Shown one piece after another: positions 152 to 7,553 of a stretch of DNA of 49,328 bases (the first letter of the stretch is position 1; every line of letters starts with the position of its first letter). The translations under genes and the position numbers were made by a program. The notes under the pieces were generated by a model. The model was not told where the DNA came from. It made no database searches and saw only the letters and a list, made by a program, of their open reading frames with translations. The DNA comes from Melioribacteraceae bacterium (GTDB lineage Bacteria; Bacteroidota; Ignavibacteria; Ignavibacteriales; Melioribacteraceae), in the NCBI GenBank assembly GCA_028282005.1, contig JANQIV010000231.1, positions 1 to 49,328 of the forward strand, given 5' to 3'.

Positions 152-2473
152 CTAAAATTCTGTTTCAAAACCAAAGTAGATTCTGCGGGGTAATTGTGGC
201 CCGTAAACATAAGCTGGATCCCTATCTGCTCCCATACCTAAATCTTCCTGGTACGAATCGAACAAGTTTTTTATTCCCAAAGTAATTTTACCGCCAAAGT
301 AATCAAATGCAGGGAGTTTATATGAGAGACCAAAATCAAACTCTAAAAAAGTCTCATCCGGTTCAAGAATTTGCTCAATCGCCTCGTTTGGTACAACCAT
401 TTTTCCTGTGTACCTCATTGAAGAAAATAGATTCACTCTTTCGTTCGGGTCGTATGAGATTCTTAAAAAGCCATATTCGTCCGGAGTCCTAAGAAATTTA
501 TCGGTAAGTTGTCCATCAAAAATTTCTTGTTGAGAATCGAACTTACTGCTTTTGTAAGTAAAACCGGCTCTAATTTCAACTTCTTGAACAGGCTTAATTC
601 CCATATCAATTTCAAAGCCTTTTACTTCAGCACCATCGGTATTAACTCTTTCCCAAATGGAAAGCCCATCCGCAGTTTCAGTTAATGGTTGGGTAGTGAA
701 AGCATCATCTAAATCTGTGTAAAAACCTGTTACGCCAAATAATACTGCAACATCACCAATAAAATTTTGAAATTCAATTCCACCGGATATTGATTTACTA
801 CTTTCTTCTTTTAAATCTGAATTATTGCGGACTACTCGCTGGTCTCCGCCAAGTGCTTCAATGTGTAAATCTTCATCAAAAGTTTGAGGTGCTTTAAAGC
901 CAGTTGTAAAAGATGCTCTTAAATCAAGACCTTCAGTAATTTCATATTTCATATTGAGTCTTGGACTGATAACCGGATCACTTAATTTTGAATGCTTGTC
1001 TAACCTGGCACCTAAAATTATATTTAAGCGATTATTCATAAATGAAATATCATCTTGGATATAAGCACCAAAATTAGTGTTGGTTTCATCAATATGATAT
1101 CTCGCATCTTTAACTGAATTGTCTGTTAAGTCATCAGCATAATATTCAAATCCTGCAGTTAGCTTTTGGTTTCCCAAAACCAAGTTTGTTCTTCCGCCAA
1201 AGCTCTGGGTAAAACTTTCAGCCAAGCCATAAAAATCTAGTGCAGCTAATCTTTCAGTTTCTGAGATATTACCGTCGCCATCATCATCTACTAATCCACC
1301 GTAGTATGATTCTCTGTCCACTTTACTGAAAGAATAAAACATACTGTAATCAAAAGTGTTTTCAAGTGAATGCTCCCACTTTATTTTACCACCCCATCGA
1401 AGATGGTCGAGCCATTCAGCAATATCTGCTTCGTGCTGAGGTAAATCGAAGTCATTCCCACCGCGTCTGTCTTCATGTATTCTGTGTGCATTAATATTTA
1501 ACTGTTGGTTTACACCCGGCTTAAAGAATAAATTAAATCCAACTGTTTCGTCTGTCAAAACACCTATCTCGGAAAATCCGTCACCATTTCTATCATAAGC
1601 AGAACGGTTTCTTGCAGAGCCATAAACAAAAGCACCAGTTTTACCATTATTTGAAACTAATTCCGACATAACTCCTAGTTTGTTTTCAAAATTGCCCTCA
1701 AGCGATTGCCCCTGGTAATTTACTTTTGTCCTGTTTATTTGCGGCTTTTGCGAAATAATATTTATTGTACCGGCAATAGCTCCTCCGCCATACAGCGCTG
1801 AACCGCCACCTTTCACAACTTCAAGCTGGCCTATCATTTCCTGAGGGAATTGTTCCAGAGCATATACTCCCGCAAGCGAACTAACAACAGGATCGCCGTC
1901 AATTAATACTTGTGAATACTTTCCGTCAAACCCAAGTATCCTAACTTGAGTAAAATTACAATTTTGACAATTGTTCTCAACTCTTACTCCTGTCTGTAAT
2001 CCAAGTGCTTCAGCAAGATTTGAAGACTTTGTTTGTTCGATTAATTTCCTCGGAATTACTTCTGTTTTTACTGGCGATTCTTCATACAAATATTGAGTTG
2101 CTGTACCGGTTATTACCACTGTCCCGGTTTCATAAAAAGCAGCTCTAAGTTGGAAATCTACTTTTGTAGTTTTGTTTGCAGTAACTTCAATAGTTTTTAT
2201 CACCGACTCAAAACCTACAATAGAGGCAATGATTCTATATTGACCTACTGCTACATTTTTGATTTCGAATTCACCATTCTCAATAGTAGCAGTTCCAAGA
2301 GTCGTATTTTGCAAAAAAACATTTACGCCAATCAGACTCTCACCGTTTGAATCAATTACTCGACCTTCAATTGTTCCATTTGCAATAACAGACTTTTTGT
2401 CCGATTTTTCGGTAGAAAAAATCGTTCCGGTTAACAAAACAATAATTATCAATAGTGTATTTAGGTATTTCAT
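152..2473 (-). CDS. TonB-dependent outer-membrane receptor
   Basis: This 773-residue protein is a typical TonB-dependent receptor that would import a large ligand, probably an iron chelate, across the outer membrane. A signal peptide covers residues 1-20. A carboxypeptidase-regulatory-like beta-sandwich follows at about 32-112, then a plug domain at about 130-245 containing an NNCQNCNFTQVRI segment, and a 22-strand-type barrel to the C-terminus, which ends in Phe as outer-membrane barrels usually do. The start has a clear ribosome binding site (AGGAAG) a few bases upstream. The gene lies downstream of the split feoB in the same orientation, across a 148-bp gap that holds a repeat, so it may belong to the same metal-controlled unit. 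The iron substrate is inferred from this context only. Confidence 0.93.
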   Translation of the reverse strand: MKYLNTLLIIIVLLTGTIFSTEKSDKKSVIANGTIEGRVIDSNGESLIGVNVFLQNTTLGTATIENGEFEIKNVAVGQYRIIASIVGFESVIKTIEVTANKTTKVDFQLRAAFYETGTVVITGTATQYLYEESPVKTEVIPRKLIEQTKSSNLAEALGLQTGVRVENNCQNCNFTQVRILGFDGKYSQVLIDGDPVVSSLAGVYALEQFPQEMIGQLEVVKGGGSALYGGGAIAGTINIISQKPQINRTKVNYQGQSLEGNFENKLGVMSELVSNNGKTGAFVYGSARNRSAYDRNGDGFSEIGVLTDETVGFNLFFKPGVNQQLNINAHRIHEDRRGGNDFDLPQHEADIAEWLDHLRWGGKIKWEHSLENTFDYSMFYSFSKVDRESYYGGLVDDDGDGNISETERLAALDFYGLAESFTQSFGGRTNLVLGNQKLTAGFEYYADDLTDNSVKDARYHIDETNTNFGAYIQDDISFMNNRLNIILGARLDKHSKLSDPVISPRLNMKYEITEGLDLRASFTTGFKAPQTFDEDLHIEALGGDQRVVRNNSDLKEESSKSISGGIEFQNFIGDVAVLFGVTGFYTDLDDAFTTQPLTETADGLSIWERVNTDGAEVKGFEIDMGIKPVQEVEIRAGFTYKSSKFDSQQEIFDGQLTDKFLRTPDEYGFLRISYDPNERVNLFSSMRYTGKMVVPNEAIEQILEPDETFLEFDFGLSYKLPAFDYFGGKITLGIKNLFDSYQEDLGMGADRDPAYVYGPQLPRRIYFGFETEF

Positions 2474-2621: not shown

Positions 2622-4043
2622 TCAACCTGTAACCAACAAATAAACCTGTGCTGTGAAGTAACAAACAATTACACCAAGAATAACCGGTAGAATTGTTGAA
2701 ACAATCGTCCACTTCCAGCTTCCTGTTTCTTTATAAATTGTATAAATTGTTGTTGAACACGGATTATGCAATAAGCTGAACAACATTAAATTCATTCCGG
2801 TCAATAATGTCCACCCACCGGATTGTAAAATATTTGCTGTATCACTAATCGAATCGAGTTCAAACATTACTCCCGCACCTTCGCCGACACCTGTCATTCC
2901 GACACTCATTACTGTTAACATTAATATCGTTGGAATCACAATTTCATTTGCGGGTATCGCAATTATGTATGCTAGCAATATTACTCCGTTAAGCCCGAGC
3001 AGCAATCCTAAAGGATTAGAAAAATTTATAAAATGCTCTGCAAGCGAAATATCATTTATTGTTACATTGCCGACCAACCAAATAACTAATCCGGCCGGTA
3101 TTGCAAAAACTATTGCACGCCAAAGAACAAAGATTGTTCTATCGATAAGTGATGTATAAAGTGTCTGCAAAATTCTTGGCGGACGATACGGCGGTAGCTC
3201 CAAACTGAATGTTGATGCTTCACCTTTCAATACTGTTTTTGACAATCCCCATGAAACAGCAAGGCTGAATAAAATTCCGAGTACAGCTATGAAAACTACA
3301 GCACCTGCAGAAACCAATCCTGCCAAATGTGCTGGAACAGCGGAGCCAATAAAAATCGATGCAATTATAATTTGCGTTGGCCACCTTCCGTTGCAAAGTG
3401 CAAAGTTGTTTGTAATAATCGCTATCAGCCTTTCCCGAGGAGAATCAATAATTCTTGCTGCAATTACACCGGCAGCGTTGCAACCAAATCCCATGCTCAT
3501 TGTTAAAGCTTGTTTGCCGTGAGCGCCTGCTCTCTTAAACAAATTATCCATGTTGAATGCAACTCGCGGAAGATATCCCAAATCTTCAAGTAAAGTAAAC
3601 ATCGGGAAAAAGATTGCCATTGGCGGAAGCATTACACTTATTACCCAGGCCATTGCGAGATAAGCACCGTCGATCAATAAACCATCCAGCCACCAAACCA
3701 TTCCGATTGACGCAGCCAAACCTTTCAGCCAAGGATGAATAGTATCTAAGAATAATGAAGCCAGCATTCCGGAAGGAACATTTGCTCCTTCAATAGTTAA
3801 CCAAAATACAACCGCAAGAATGAGAAACATCAAAGGCAAACCAAACCAGCGGCTTGTCACAATTTTATCAATGTTTCTTTCAAGATTAAATGTAGATGTC
3901 TTCCCTTTTTTAACAATTGCCCGGGAAGCAATTTTCTCAGCATCTTCATAAATCGATTCGATCAAATGATCGTGAAAGTTTTCTCCAACTTTCAATCGCA
4001 TTACATTTGATTCTGCAATTAATGCTTCTTTTTTATTTTCCAT
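2622..4043 (-). CDS. feoB: FeoB membrane (permease) half of a split ferrous iron transporter
   Basis: These 473 residues match the C-terminal membrane part of FeoB, the inner-membrane Fe(II) transporter. A short cytoplasmic linker (1-60) leads to the conserved SRWFGLPLMFLI segment that opens the first membrane helix. Two Gate-type domains follow, including the GFGCN motif with Cys188 and a later NPCSTTIYTIYKETGS segment. The gene starts with ATG inside the stop codon of the upstream GTPase gene (TAATG overlap), which points to translational coupling and assembly of the two halves. A normal FeoB is one chain of about 650-800 residues; here GTPase and permease are separate proteins of complete-looking domain structure. 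This looks like a clean split rather than a decayed gene. Confidence 0.93.
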   Translation of the reverse strand: MENKKEALIAESNVMRLKVGENFHDHLIESIYEDAEKIASRAIVKKGKTSTFNLERNIDKIVTSRWFGLPLMFLILAVVFWLTIEGANVPSGMLASLFLDTIHPWLKGLAASIGMVWWLDGLLIDGAYLAMAWVISVMLPPMAIFFPMFTLLEDLGYLPRVAFNMDNLFKRAGAHGKQALTMSMGFGCNAAGVIAARIIDSPRERLIAIITNNFALCNGRWPTQIIIASIFIGSAVPAHLAGLVSAGAVVFIAVLGILFSLAVSWGLSKTVLKGEASTFSLELPPYRPPRILQTLYTSLIDRTIFVLWRAIVFAIPAGLVIWLVGNVTINDISLAEHFINFSNPLGLLLGLNGVILLAYIIAIPANEIVIPTILMLTVMSVGMTGVGEGAGVMFELDSISDTANILQSGGWTLLTGMNLMLFSLLHNPCSTTIYTIYKETGSWKWTIVSTILPVILGVIVCYFTAQVYLLVTG

Positions 4044-4858
4044 TACGCTACCTCACCGACTTGTTCATTTTGAACTTCGGCGTTTTCAATTTTATTAAGT
4101 TCTTCAAGTTCGTTGTTTCTAATCGCGTTTATAATTCTTTGATCTCCTTCAAGCAATCGCATTGCGACCCAGCGGGCGTTTGGCAGATCCGGATATATAT
4201 CTACAACTTTTTTCGTCAACTCTTCAATTGATTTTTTTATTGCTTTTGATTCGCTTGTCATTCTGTGCGGTTTGCAAACATAGGAGCCGGTAGCAACTTC
4301 ATGTACTTTTGAAAGCAAGTCATTCATTCCTTCACCTTGCCTCGCCGCAGCAGGCACAACGGGAATCCCGAGATCTCTTTCCAGACTTCTTACGTCAATT
4401 TCAATTTCATGCCTTCGTGCTTCGTCCATTAAATTTAAGCACAGCACTGCACGTTCTGTTATTTCCAAAACTTGTAAAACCAGGTTCAAATTTCTTTCAA
4501 GCCGGGAAGCATCAACAACGATTATAGTAACATCCGGCTGTCCGAATAAAATAAAATCGCGTGCGATCTCTTCATCTGTACTTGTCGATAATAGCGAATA
4601 CGTTCCAGGCAAGTCAATCAACTTAAATTTATTGTTGGAAAACTCGAATCCGCCTTCCGCTCTTCCGACAGTCTTGCCGGGCCAGTTGCCTGTGTGCTGT
4701 CTTAATCCTGTTAAGTAATTAAACACTGTGCTTTTCCCTGTATTCGGATTGCCGGCTAATGCAACTACGTAATCGAAGTTCTCCATATTCACACCAAGCT
4801 TTTTTAAGTTAGCCAGGTTATGCACCGGACAATTATTACAATCGTGATTAGTACTCAT
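4043..4858 (-). CDS. feoB: FeoB GTPase half of a split ferrous iron transporter
   Basis: This 271-residue protein carries the G domain of FeoB. Visible motifs are G1 GNPNTGKS (36-43), G3 DLPG (82-85), G4 NLMD (142-145) and a G5-like PAAA stretch near 169-172. A helical region after about 200 fits the GDI domain. The N-terminus has a Cys7-x2-Cys10-x2-His13 motif, seen in many FeoB proteins and a possible metal or redox site. A strong AGGAG ribosome binding site precedes the ATG. The stop overlaps the start of the permease half by one base. GTP hydrolysis here should gate Fe(II) uptake by the permease chain. Confidence 0.94.
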
Positions 4859-4984: not shown

Positions 4985-5062
4985 TGTCATTCCCGCATGC
5001 TTTTAGCGGGAATCTATTTTCTAAGATTTATGGATTCCCGATTAAAACGTTCGGGAATGACA
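4985..5062. repeat. Two-hairpin palindromic repeat, family A
   Basis: Hairpin 1 (GTCATTCCCGC ... GCGGGAATC) is joined by about 20 AT-rich bases to hairpin 2 (ATTCCCG ... CGGGAATGAC, 5034-5061). The outer ends are inverted copies of TGTCATTCCCG. This is the most intact copy of the family in the window and lies just past the stop of the DtxR-FeoA fusion gene. Confidence 0.75.
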
Positions 5063-5073
5063 GTCCAATTTCA

Positions 5074-6087
5074 TCAGTCACCCTTTATAAAAATTTGATC
5101 AGTCTGGTTTCGTCTCAACGCAACTGTTGCTCCGCGAACCAAATAAGCAACCGGGTCACTGCCGATGCTGAATAGCTCCGCAGTTACTTTTGATCCGGGG
5201 ACAATCCCCAAATCCATTAAACGCCTTCTTTGTCTTCCACGCACTGCTTTTGAAATCCCGGCAATTACTCCCTCTTCACCTTGCTTTAATGATGACAATG
5301 TTTTGAAGTCGCTTTGAATTTCTTCTTCCTCATCAATTTTTGTCACGGCAATGTTATTCGCAATTATCGGTGCGAGGACATATTCATCACCTTCAGCGAT
5401 AAGTTTTATTCGCTTTTCATTTTTTTCTGCTAACTGTATCTGCTGCCCCCTATGAAGATTTATAGCAACAATTTGAGAATAAATCGCGTCCGGCTCATCT
5501 TCGATATGAGTAATAACAGCAAATTCGCCACTCGCAAGTGAAGTTAGCGGGATACTATTATCATCCAAAATCTCACCATCCGCAGTGGGAATCGGGTCAC
5601 CGTGAGGATCGTAAAACGGATTGCCAAGTTTTGCGGCTAACTCGTCTACTTCACTTGGACTCAAGTCATGTTCTTTTATTTCAGCATAATGGTGCCATTT
5701 CTCTTCACTAATGCTTGTGTGGTCCGCGAGGTATTTTTCCCAAAGCCTGTGAACACGGATAACTTTCAGCGCGTATGATTTCCCACCTGCTGAAAGTTTT
5801 ACAAACTCCGGCTCCGAAATTATTAATCCCATTTTTTCAAGGTTTGAAAGAAGGTTTGCAGCATCGTCGTTTGAAATTGAAAGGTTGCCACCGACACTAT
5901 GAACAGTACATTTAATCCCTTTGTATTCACAGTCGTAAATGTGTTTGAGCGCGTCTTCAATCAATTCTTTTTTCTTATCGCGCTTGCCTTTGCTCCATTT
6001 ATCCAGAAATCCTTTTTGCGGATAAACCAGATAAACCAAAACTGCCGTAACTATTAAACCTATTATTATTCCCAATAAAGGACTCAT
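5074..6087 (-). CDS. Membrane-anchored DtxR-like protein with two FeoA/SH3-like domains
   Basis: The 337-residue product has an N-terminal membrane helix (about 4-22), then a basic stretch and a DtxR-type winged-helix and dimerisation region (about 38-165). Two SH3-like domains follow at about 180-250 and 262-337. The second is a bona fide FeoA domain (RRRLMDLGIVPGSKV, then VRGATVALRR). The metal ligands of the DtxR/MntR fold appear kept: Asp45, His113, Glu117, His132, Glu136, Glu139, His140. A good AAGGAAA ribosome binding site precedes the ATG. It lies upstream of the split feoB and probably supplies the FeoA function that supports FeoB at the membrane. Whether the winged helix still binds DNA is unknown. 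Confidence 0.85.
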   Translation of the reverse strand: MSPLLGIIIGLIVTAVLVYLVYPQKGFLDKWSKGKRDKKKELIEDALKHIYDCEYKGIKCTVHSVGGNLSISNDDAANLLSNLEKMGLIISEPEFVKLSAGGKSYALKVIRVHRLWEKYLADHTSISEEKWHHYAEIKEHDLSPSEVDELAAKLGNPFYDPHGDPIPTADGEILDDNSIPLTSLASGEFAVITHIEDEPDAIYSQIVAINLHRGQQIQLAEKNEKRIKLIAEGDEYVLAPIIANNIAVTKIDEEEEIQSDFKTLSSLKQGEEGVIAGISKAVRGRQRRRLMDLGIVPGSKVTAELFSIGSDPVAYLVRGATVALRRNQTDQIFIKGD

Positions 6088-6120: not shown

Positions 6121-6204
6121 GCCATTCCCGCATTTTTCTATTGGGAATCTATTATTCTATTTTTTGGATCCCCGATAATCCGCCGCGGCGGATCGCGATG
6201 ACGG
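6121..6204. repeat. Degenerate family A repeat with a GC-rich palindrome
   Basis: Hairpin 1 is GCCATTCCCGC ... GGGAATC. The second half starts GGATCCCCGAT and ends GCGATGACGGC. Inside the second half is a perfect 16-bp GC-rich palindrome, ATCCGCCGCGGCGGAT (6178-6193), which stands out in this AT-rich DNA. Confidence 0.6.
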
Positions 6205-6226
6205 CCAAAATTTTCTGCTTCTCTTT

Positions 6227-6250
6227 GTCATTCCCGTGAAAACGGGAATC
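6227..6250. repeat. Family A hairpin 1, flanking the GIY-YIG gene
   Basis: GTCATTCCCG and CGGGAATC form a short hairpin separated by TGAAAA. It is identical in layout to hairpin 1 of the repeat at 4985. It lies three bases from the stop codon of the GIY-YIG gene. Confidence 0.65.
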
Positions 6251-6253
6251 TAT

Positions 6254-6541
6254 TTACAGAAAATCTTCAGACAAATCTCTCCAGCCTGGATTTGTTTTTT
6301 CTATCAATTCTATCTTCCATTCTCTATTCCACTTTTTCAGTCTTTTCTCTCTTTGAATTGCTACATTAACATCGTTACACATTTCAAAATAGACCAATTT
6401 GTGTACTGAATATTTTTCAGTAAAACCTTCTGTCAAGTTCTTTTTATGCTCATACATTCTTCGTGGCAAATCATTTGTAAATCCTATGTAAAGTGTTCCG
6501 TTCTTTTGACTCGCTAATATATAAACATAATATTGTTTCAT
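6254..6541 (-). CDS. Small GIY-YIG domain nuclease
   Basis: This 95-residue protein is a single-domain GIY-YIG endonuclease of the UPF0213/YhbQ-like type. The hallmark YYVYIL and LYIGFTNDLPRRMYEH segments hold the two Tyr-containing strands and the catalytic Arg. Glu52-54 region residues and a late RLKKWNREWK basic helix follow, and the protein ends NPGWRDLSEDFL. Such small proteins are common in this part of the tree, and their cellular role is not established. The gene lies between two hairpins of one palindromic repeat, with the left one three bases past the stop and the right one ten bases before the start. This suggests that gene and repeat travelled together. It interrupts an otherwise metal-related gene row. 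Confidence 0.9.
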   Translation of the reverse strand: MKQYYVYILASQKNGTLYIGFTNDLPRRMYEHKKNLTEGFTEKYSVHKLVYFEMCNDVNVAIQREKRLKKWNREWKIELIEKTNPGWRDLSEDFL

Positions 6542-6600: not shown

Positions 6601-6672
6601 GTCATTCCCGCATGTCTCTGGCGGGAATCTATTTTACTGTTTTACTGATTTCCGTTTTCACCGGAAAAACTG
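6601..6672. repeat. Family A repeat, second half degenerate
   Basis: GTCATTCCCGC and GCGGGAATC form hairpin 1, followed by TATTTTACTG. The second half is a diverged hairpin (TTTCCG ... CGGAAAAACTGTC). It ends at the stop codon of the DtxR-type regulator gene. Confidence 0.65.
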
Positions 6673-6673
6673 T

Positions 6674-7333
6674 CTAAATCTTTGTTACAAAAACACTATT
6701 AGTTAATTTTTCACTTACGGTTATATTCTCACCGTCATTTTCAATAATCATCGAGTTATCAAAATTCAGCTTCTCAATAATTTTTATTTTTTTATTCAAT
6801 ACCAGATTCAGCTTTGTTAAATAATTTATGAGGTCTTCACTTTCGTCGTGCACATTTTTAATTTGATATCTCTTCCCTTCCACTGCTTTACTTAGCGGGA
6901 TCATGTCCGGCAGCTTCGGCACTTCCCCGTTCTTTTGGGGAATCGGGCTTCCGTGCGGATCAAATTCCGGGAAGTTCAGCAGTTCGTCAATTTTGTCGAT
7001 TAAAAACTCGGAAGTGTTGTGCTCAAGGTTTTCAGCTTCACGGTGGACTTCACTCCATGAGAGCCCGAGTACCTTAATTAAAAATAGCTCCCAAAGCCTA
7101 TGCCTGCGTAAAATGTTGAGCGCAATTTTTTCACCTTTACCGGTAAGTTTTAAGCCTTTGTATTTTTCATATTTAATGAAACCTTGTGCAGCAAGCTTTT
7201 TAGCCATATCGCTTGTTGCTGCGTTGGAAACATCAAGATCAGCAGCAATATCTGCAGTGGAAACGGAATCACCATTTTCATTCTGAAATTTGTAGATTGA
7301 CTTAAGATAATCTTCTTTTGAAATACTCGGCAT
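6674..7333 (-). CDS. DtxR/MntR-family metal-dependent repressor
   Basis: The 219-residue protein has a winged helix-turn-helix (about 5-65, recognition helix near 36-50), a dimerisation and metal-binding domain (about 70-135), and a C-terminal SH3/FeoA-like domain (about 148-219). The metal ligands are visible: Asp8, His78, Glu82, His97, Glu101, Glu104 and His105. Asp8 and Glu101 stand where DtxR has Met10 and Cys102, which is the MntR pattern; MntR Glu11 is Lys here. The start has only a weak GAG-rich ribosome binding site. As first gene of the feo row it is the likely regulator, acting through the palindrome at 7532-7553. Its metal (Mn or Fe) cannot be settled from sequence. Confidence 0.92.
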   Translation of the reverse strand: MPSISKEDYLKSIYKFQNENGDSVSTADIAADLDVSNAATSDMAKKLAAQGFIKYEKYKGLKLTGKGEKIALNILRRHRLWELFLIKVLGLSWSEVHREAENLEHNTSEFLIDKIDELLNFPEFDPHGSPIPQKNGEVPKLPDMIPLSKAVEGKRYQIKNVHDESEDLINYLTKLNLVLNKKIKIIEKLNFDNSMIIENDGENITVSEKLTNSVFVTKI

Positions 7334-7531: not shown

Positions 7532-7553
7532 AAAGTTAAGCATGCTTAACTTT
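7532..7553. promoter_or_regulatory. Perfect palindrome, candidate DtxR-family operator
   Basis: A 22-bp perfect palindrome with core GTTAAGCATGCTTAAC lies in the gap upstream of the DtxR-type regulator, about 200 bases before its start codon. DtxR-family proteins bind palindromes of this size and AT-rich style as paired dimers. A single half-site, GCTTAAC (7399-7405), lies nearer the start codon. The role as operator is inferred from position and symmetry. The rest of this 276-bp gap holds repeats and no gene. Confidence 0.5.

Follow-up and report, generated by a model that had tools for sequence, protein, structure and literature searches.

Judged from its sequence, the 337-aa protein encoded at 5074-6087 is probably a FeoA subunit that is anchored in the membrane, senses metal and switches transport by a particular clade of FeoB. 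It is encoded next to this FeoB and close to a soluble DtxR in the window, i.e. the whole stretch of DNA that was analysed (49,328 nucleotides). On the same evidence, the chances are about even that a DtxR/MntR-type sensor has moved off the DNA onto the transporter and gates FeoB post-translationally via a tethered FeoA, with a soluble paralogue in charge of transcription. The relevant features of the window are:

5074-6087, minus strand: membrane-anchored DtxR-FeoA protein, 337 aa (ORF, translation, Pfam, AlphaFold2 model, family alignment)
6022-6081, minus strand: N-terminal membrane helix, residues 3-22, predicted N-out/C-in (hydropathy, K/R bias, model)
5785-5958, minus strand: degenerate winged helix, residues 44-101, bearing metal ligand D45 (Fe_dep_repress under cut-off)
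5584-5784, minus strand: metal-binding and dimerisation domain, residues 102-168, with H113, E117, H132, E136, E139 and H140 (Fe_dep_repr_C)
5335-5544, minus strand: first SH3/FeoA-like domain, residues 182-251, equivalent to the SH3 domain of DtxR (FeoA HMM, model strands)
5491-5508, minus strand: invariant HxEDEP loop, residues 194-199 (family alignment)
5080-5301, minus strand: C-terminal FeoA domain, residues 263-336 (FeoA HMM, FeoA tree)
4043-4858, minus strand: FeoB GTPase half, 271 aa, with an N-terminal CxxC (FeoB_N, E 1.8e-60)
2622-4043, minus strand: FeoB permease half, 473 aa (Gate and FeoB_C domains)
6674-7333, minus strand: soluble DtxR/MntR-type regulator, 219 aa (Fe_dep_repress, 5.6e-15; Fe_dep_repr_C, 2.5e-31)
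7532-7553, no strand assigned: perfect 22-bp palindrome AAAGTTAAGCATGCTTAACTTT, putative operator of the TTAAGn4CTTAA variant, upstream of the operon

The earlier note had read the protein as an N-terminal membrane segment, a DtxR-type domain with all metal ligands apparently kept and a real FeoA domain, placed directly before a split FeoB. Each of these parts is borne out by a conserved hydrophobic helix, by seven ligands conserved in 38-40 of 40 family sequences, by a C-terminal domain scoring 55.2 bits with the FeoA HMM (family cut-off, 23) and by the GTPase (4858-4043) and permease (4043-2622) genes that come next. A Shine-Dalgarno-like AAGGA is found immediately 5´ of the ATG. In Pfam, the protein matches Fe_dep_repr_C (E 3.9e-21) and, in two stretches, FeoA (E 2.4e-21), the match of the first SH3/FeoA-like domain covering 5341-5553 at 24.8 bits; the DNA-binding model Fe_dep_repress reaches E 0.13 and 13 bits in the same protein, compared with a cut-off of 26. 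The protein gave no match to PF09012 (FeoC, a small winged-helix partner of FeoB) with E values allowed up to 1, and a functional analogy with FeoC is only an idea. The AlphaFold2 model (pLDDT 90.7, pTM 0.80) has a helix at residues 3-21, a break at 22-26, a helix at 27-56 that runs into the DtxR core with its wHTH and dimer domain, and two SH3-like barrels. The best match among solved structures is the Mn-dependent repressor 5zr6, with a Z score of 25.3 and an rmsd of 1.4 Å over 206 residues (Foldseek, VIA-align).

The mean hydropathy over residues 4-22 is 2.71, and 38 of the 40 family sequences pass a threshold of 1.6 for the 19-residue mean, compared with none of the soluble DtxRs (maximum 1.11). 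Lysine and arginine average 5.6 across the family in the 20 residues after the helix vs 0.16 before it; an N-out/C-in topology is therefore predicted, with a single-pass anchor and the remainder cytosolic. Conservation of the helix in the family, and its lack in the soluble paralogues, rule out a plain soluble DtxR with a mis-called start, and the conservation of the architecture across phyla rules out a chance ORF or an assembly artefact. Relatives of the same architecture could have turned out to be plain soluble DtxRs, as the earlier note had considered, but they carry the membrane helix. In L041 (5980-6900) and L074 (4807-5841) the DtxR-FeoA part is kept and the helix is apparently absent, and anchoring does not seem to be essential everywhere, given these two cases.

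A scan of genome contigs revealed 39 close relatives with 39-53% identity, nearly all of about 340 aa, in records named as Ignavibacteria, Calditrichota, Bacteroidota, Chloroflexota, Verrucomicrobiota, Planctomycetota, Acidobacteriota and Omnitrophota. The family spans at least six phyla; many of the relatives are MAGs, for which single taxonomic assignments may be wrong. One such case is L029, which is labelled Rickettsiales but groups with Marinoscillum in the tree and is probably misassigned. In a tree of DtxR cores, the membrane DtxR-FeoA family is one clade (support 100). The FeoB GTPase and permease come next in every locus long enough to judge, and a soluble DtxR of about 217 aa is usually encoded just upstream.

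The metal site and the DNA-reading surface of the DtxR core have had very different fates. In the family alignment (n=40), H113, E117, H132, E139 and H140 are each found in 40/40 sequences, E136 in 39 (one D) and D45 in 38 (two N). The DPHG motif (D160 and H162) is likewise present in 40/40, as are H194, E196, D197, E198 and P199 of the first SH3 domain. Of the latter HxEDEP residues, only the D is shared with the paired soluble DtxRs, and the loop is a candidate source of SH3 ligands for an ancillary metal site. With the soluble DtxRs of the same 33 loci as control, mean column entropy at the ligands is 0.08 in the membrane group vs 0.21, and the relation is reversed in the recognition helix (2.28 vs 1.21) and in the wing (2.21 vs 1.52). 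The net charge of the HTH and wing is -1.4 in the membrane group vs +2.1 in the soluble proteins (paired Wilcoxon p 4e-6, which overstates independence as the loci are related). The bases are read in IdeR by Ser37, Pro39, Thr40 and Gln43, and the arginine of the wing is Arg60 (PMC10317159). The equivalents of the first four are variable in the membrane group, Arg60 is mostly replaced by D, G, E or N, and one wing residue is deleted in 40/40 membrane proteins. Where the membrane protein stands alone, with no adjacent soluble DtxR, no DNA-binding surface is retained either, because the recognition helix is neutral or acidic in 6/7 such loci. The DtxR core of the membrane protein thus seems to have given up DNA binding, although loss of a DtxR-like recognition helix is no proof of this. 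As to the metal, replacement of Met10 and Cys102 by Asp and Glu gives the ligand set of MntR (PMC10317159, PMC6860424). The membrane protein has Asp and Glu at these positions, so that Mn2+ is no less likely than Fe2+ to be the signal, and the metal sensed may be Mn2+.

Transcriptional control of the operon is likely to fall to the soluble DtxR at 6674-7333, as suggested by its sequence. Soluble DtxRs upstream in the same operons keep an intact DNA-binding surface, and the box TTTAGn6CTAAA, at up to 2 mismatches in 10, is found upstream of the soluble DtxR in 33/38 regions (25 of them perfect), compared with 8.7 expected from mononucleotide shuffles. In the window itself the exact box was not found, the best site having 3 mismatches; the TTAAGn4CTTAA variant seen in the palindrome occurs also in L062, L066 and L009. 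L016 has no soluble DtxR beside the membrane protein; there the latter is itself preceded by a perfect box, and soluble DtxRs are encoded at other places in the genome. Between the genes for the soluble DtxR and for the membrane protein lies that of a GIY-YIG protein of 95 aa (6254-6541, minus strand, E 1.1e-17). In relatives the two genes are direct neighbours, and the GIY-YIG gene seems to have been inserted into the operon. On both sides of the membrane-protein gene there is a short GTCATTCCCGC repeat (4986-5061, 6121-6237 and 6601-6611), with 6 matches in the window where 0.31 are expected.

Linkage to FeoB is tight. The membrane protein is present in 26 of 198 genomes of its own phylum (E below 1e-99), and in 26/26 it is adjacent to the same type of FeoB GTPase (>300 bits). 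This type occurs in 30 of the 198 genomes, the other FeoBs there scoring <180 bits. In Planctomycetota, the membrane protein and the FeoB type are found, adjacent to each other, in the identical 4 of 199 genomes. Four genomes (L048-L051) have the FeoB type without the membrane protein. They encode a free FeoA of about 80 residues in the slot before FeoB, with a soluble DtxR near this slot; the sensor part is thus modular and not obligatory for FeoB. The free slot FeoAs and the fused C-terminal FeoA domains form one clade apart from other FeoAs (support 99; a short alignment of 78 columns, from which we use the starred split only). Within this clade the slot FeoAs appear nested among the fused ones, as would be expected from loss of the sensor part.

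Most carriers have a split FeoB; in L053, L054, L072, L073 and L074 it is one chain. These one-chain FeoBs beside the protein rule out a strict tie to a split FeoB. The association is thus with the FeoB clade and not with the split, which the gene arrangements mark as incidental, and the split FeoB that the earlier note had made part of the association turns out to be dispensable to it. The N-terminal CxxC ahead of the GTPase domain is conserved in 57/62 sequences of the FeoB clade and absent from the FeoB of three of the four free-FeoA genomes; it is possible that it forms an extra metal or redox site. Directly downstream of the permease, a TonB-dependent receptor is encoded at 152-2473 (minus strand); it may serve the same metal uptake route at the outer membrane. 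The genome has a further Feo system, of canonical type, at another place (C145:19169-20361, L003), made up of a one-chain FeoB and a 169-aa protein with two FeoA domains in tandem.

In the mechanism that we propose, the DtxR/MntR core would act off the DNA and sense cytosolic Mn2+ or Fe2+. Metal bound at the primary and ancillary sites would, as it does in DtxR, fix the N-terminal helix and dock the first SH3 domain. Here, this helix runs on into the membrane anchor, and FeoA is attached to the SH3 domain. With the helix tied to the membrane and FeoA carried by the SH3 domain, metal would change the contact between FeoA and the FeoB GTPase, such that movement of FeoA relative to the GTPase switches transport. 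FeoA has been proposed to stabilise GTP-bound FeoB (PMC8980893). The switch would most simply be feedback inhibition when metal is plentiful, but activation by metal could also apply. The soluble DtxR encoded upstream would add slower transcriptional control via the DtxR box.

The earlier note had left the choice between a metal-sensing gate at the transporter and a membrane-tethered repressor. We favour the gate, as an explanation of the invariant ligands, the decayed and acidic DNA surface, the FeoA slot, the linkage to one FeoB clade and the separate soluble DtxR with its boxes, all of which are read from sequence; metal binding, the contact with FeoB, the direction of the switch, the metal concerned and gating itself we infer. 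A repressor acting on its own operon while in place in the membrane would make use of the DtxR-repressor fold and its metal site and could find an operator in the palindrome upstream. This is improbable, given a DNA-binding Pfam model under its cut-off, the unconserved equivalents of Ser37, Pro39, Thr40 and Gln43, the mostly D, G, E or N residue in place of Arg60, and the neutral or acidic recognition helices of 6/7 loci without an adjacent soluble DtxR, and with a soluble DtxR of intact DNA-binding surface available for the operator. Decay and acidity of the DNA-reading surface also make it hard to credit that the cytosolic DtxR-FeoA part is released by proteolysis to act as a repressor of transcription, and most operons encode a soluble DtxR already. 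Such a latent repressor would have a parallel in Chlamydia, where a fused DtxR domain is cleaved and gives iron-dependent repression (PMC5599777), and fusions of ABC-3 permeases with DtxR are the closest membrane relatives; we nevertheless regard it as very improbable.

It is also conceivable, if unlikely, that the protein is a tethered FeoA and nothing else, its DtxR core being a dimerising scaffold, or an acceptor or relay of metal from the permease, with no switching of transport. The membrane anchor and the FeoA domain are clear, a free FeoA in the same slot implies that four genomes can dispense with the sensor part, and anchoring could help to recruit a detached GTPase. However, the protein is also found with one-chain FeoBs, for which recruitment is needless, and a scaffold would not need seven ligands and an HxEDEP loop that are kept in 38-40 of 40 sequences at about 40-50% identity to the query. 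Transport switching by a metal-sensing FeoA subunit is the reading that we retain.

The anchor may have a traceable origin. ABC-3-type permeases with a C-terminal DtxR core are found in L004, L006, L070, L071, L075 and L076, with coordinates for five of these as follows:

ABC-3-type permease-DtxR fusions: L004:10943-12448, L070:3807-5288, L071:4139-5623, L075:5765-7252, L076:3565-6241

In L076, two such genes are located side by side. An alignment to the L004 fusion (phmmer) begins within the last membrane helix and passes a PxxG into helix 1. When an HMM of the N-terminal 42 residues, containing no DtxR part, was used, two fusions ranked first among 1819 other ORFs (E 0.03 and 0.05), both matching at the last permease helix. 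Models of the membrane protein and of a fusion share a spacing of a 19-residue helix, a 5-residue break and a 30-residue helix (the fusion model is of low confidence, pLDDT 69.4, and only its helix spacing is used). The fusions adjoin the membrane family in the tree (SH-aLRT 93; quick tree, split not starred). These observations suggest that the membrane helix and junction share a common origin with those of the fusions. The simplest reading of the sequences is that the membrane protein descends from a permease-DtxR fusion of which one helix was kept and to which FeoA was added, but descent in the reverse direction is also possible. The DNA-binding model of DtxR is unmatched in the L004 fusion, and some of the fusions may be transporter sensors too.

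Permease-DtxR fusions have been reported in 11 phyla, and YtgC of Chlamydia carries YtgR, which reportedly undergoes cleavage and binds DNA in iron-dependent repression (PMC5599777). The present protein resembles the YtgCR fusions in having a membrane helix, a PxxG break and a long helix into helix 1 of DtxR, and these fusions largely keep the metal ligands. It differs from them in having one membrane helix, rather than a complete ABC-3 permease, ahead of the DtxR core, in carrying a FeoA domain and in partnering FeoB instead of an ABC transporter. Fold and metal ligands are those of the MntR/DtxR/IdeR repressors (5zr6; DR2539, 8pw0), from which it is set apart by the anchor, the extra FeoA and the decayed DNA-reading helix and wing. 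As with FeoA that stands alone or forms a fusion with FeoB (as in Bacteroides fragilis), the FeoA domain occupies the slot before FeoB and is replaceable by a free FeoA; unlike known FeoA, it is joined to a membrane metal sensor. FB2 of Porphyromonas gingivalis we take to be a FeoB. It is a manganese transporter, and its operon encodes PgMntR, a DtxR core with two C-terminal FeoA domains like the protein described here (PMC4805248). The predicted extra ligands of PgMntR include H166, D169 and E170, with the same spacing as H194, D197 and E198 (PMC4805248). PgMntR is soluble and binds its own promoter DNA, with no membrane helix reported, whereas the present protein has a membrane helix and a decayed recognition helix. 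Six candidate PgMntR homologues with long frames in the same phylum (L068, L069 and L078-L081) were rejected as ordinary soluble DtxRs lacking a second FeoA.

DtxR-FeoA architectures are already present in databases. FeoA-DtxR fusions were excluded from the set analysed in a JBC 2022 paper, and FeoA with extra domains is mentioned only in passing in an mBio 2022 paper. In the literature searched, mostly outside subscription journals, we found no description of the membrane form, the FeoB linkage, the lost DNA surface or the split FeoB. The parts and precedents are thus known (YtgCR, PgMntR, FeoA fusions), and the membrane form with its linkage to FeoB appears to be new.

It is an open question what FeoA does and how FeoB is regulated post-translationally (PMC8980893, PMC10353542). 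The natural joining of a well-understood metal switch to FeoA, in which the ligands are kept and the DNA surface is seemingly lost, makes a direct test of the role of FeoA possible. If it is true that metal alters the FeoB GTPase only via the membrane protein, FeoA would be a regulatory handle, and one operon would hold two metal sensors with separate outputs. FeoA would then gain a defined role as a movable activator or brake of the FeoB GTPase, and the DtxR family would extend from transcription to direct control of a transporter, linking it with the permease-DtxR fusions (PMC5599777).
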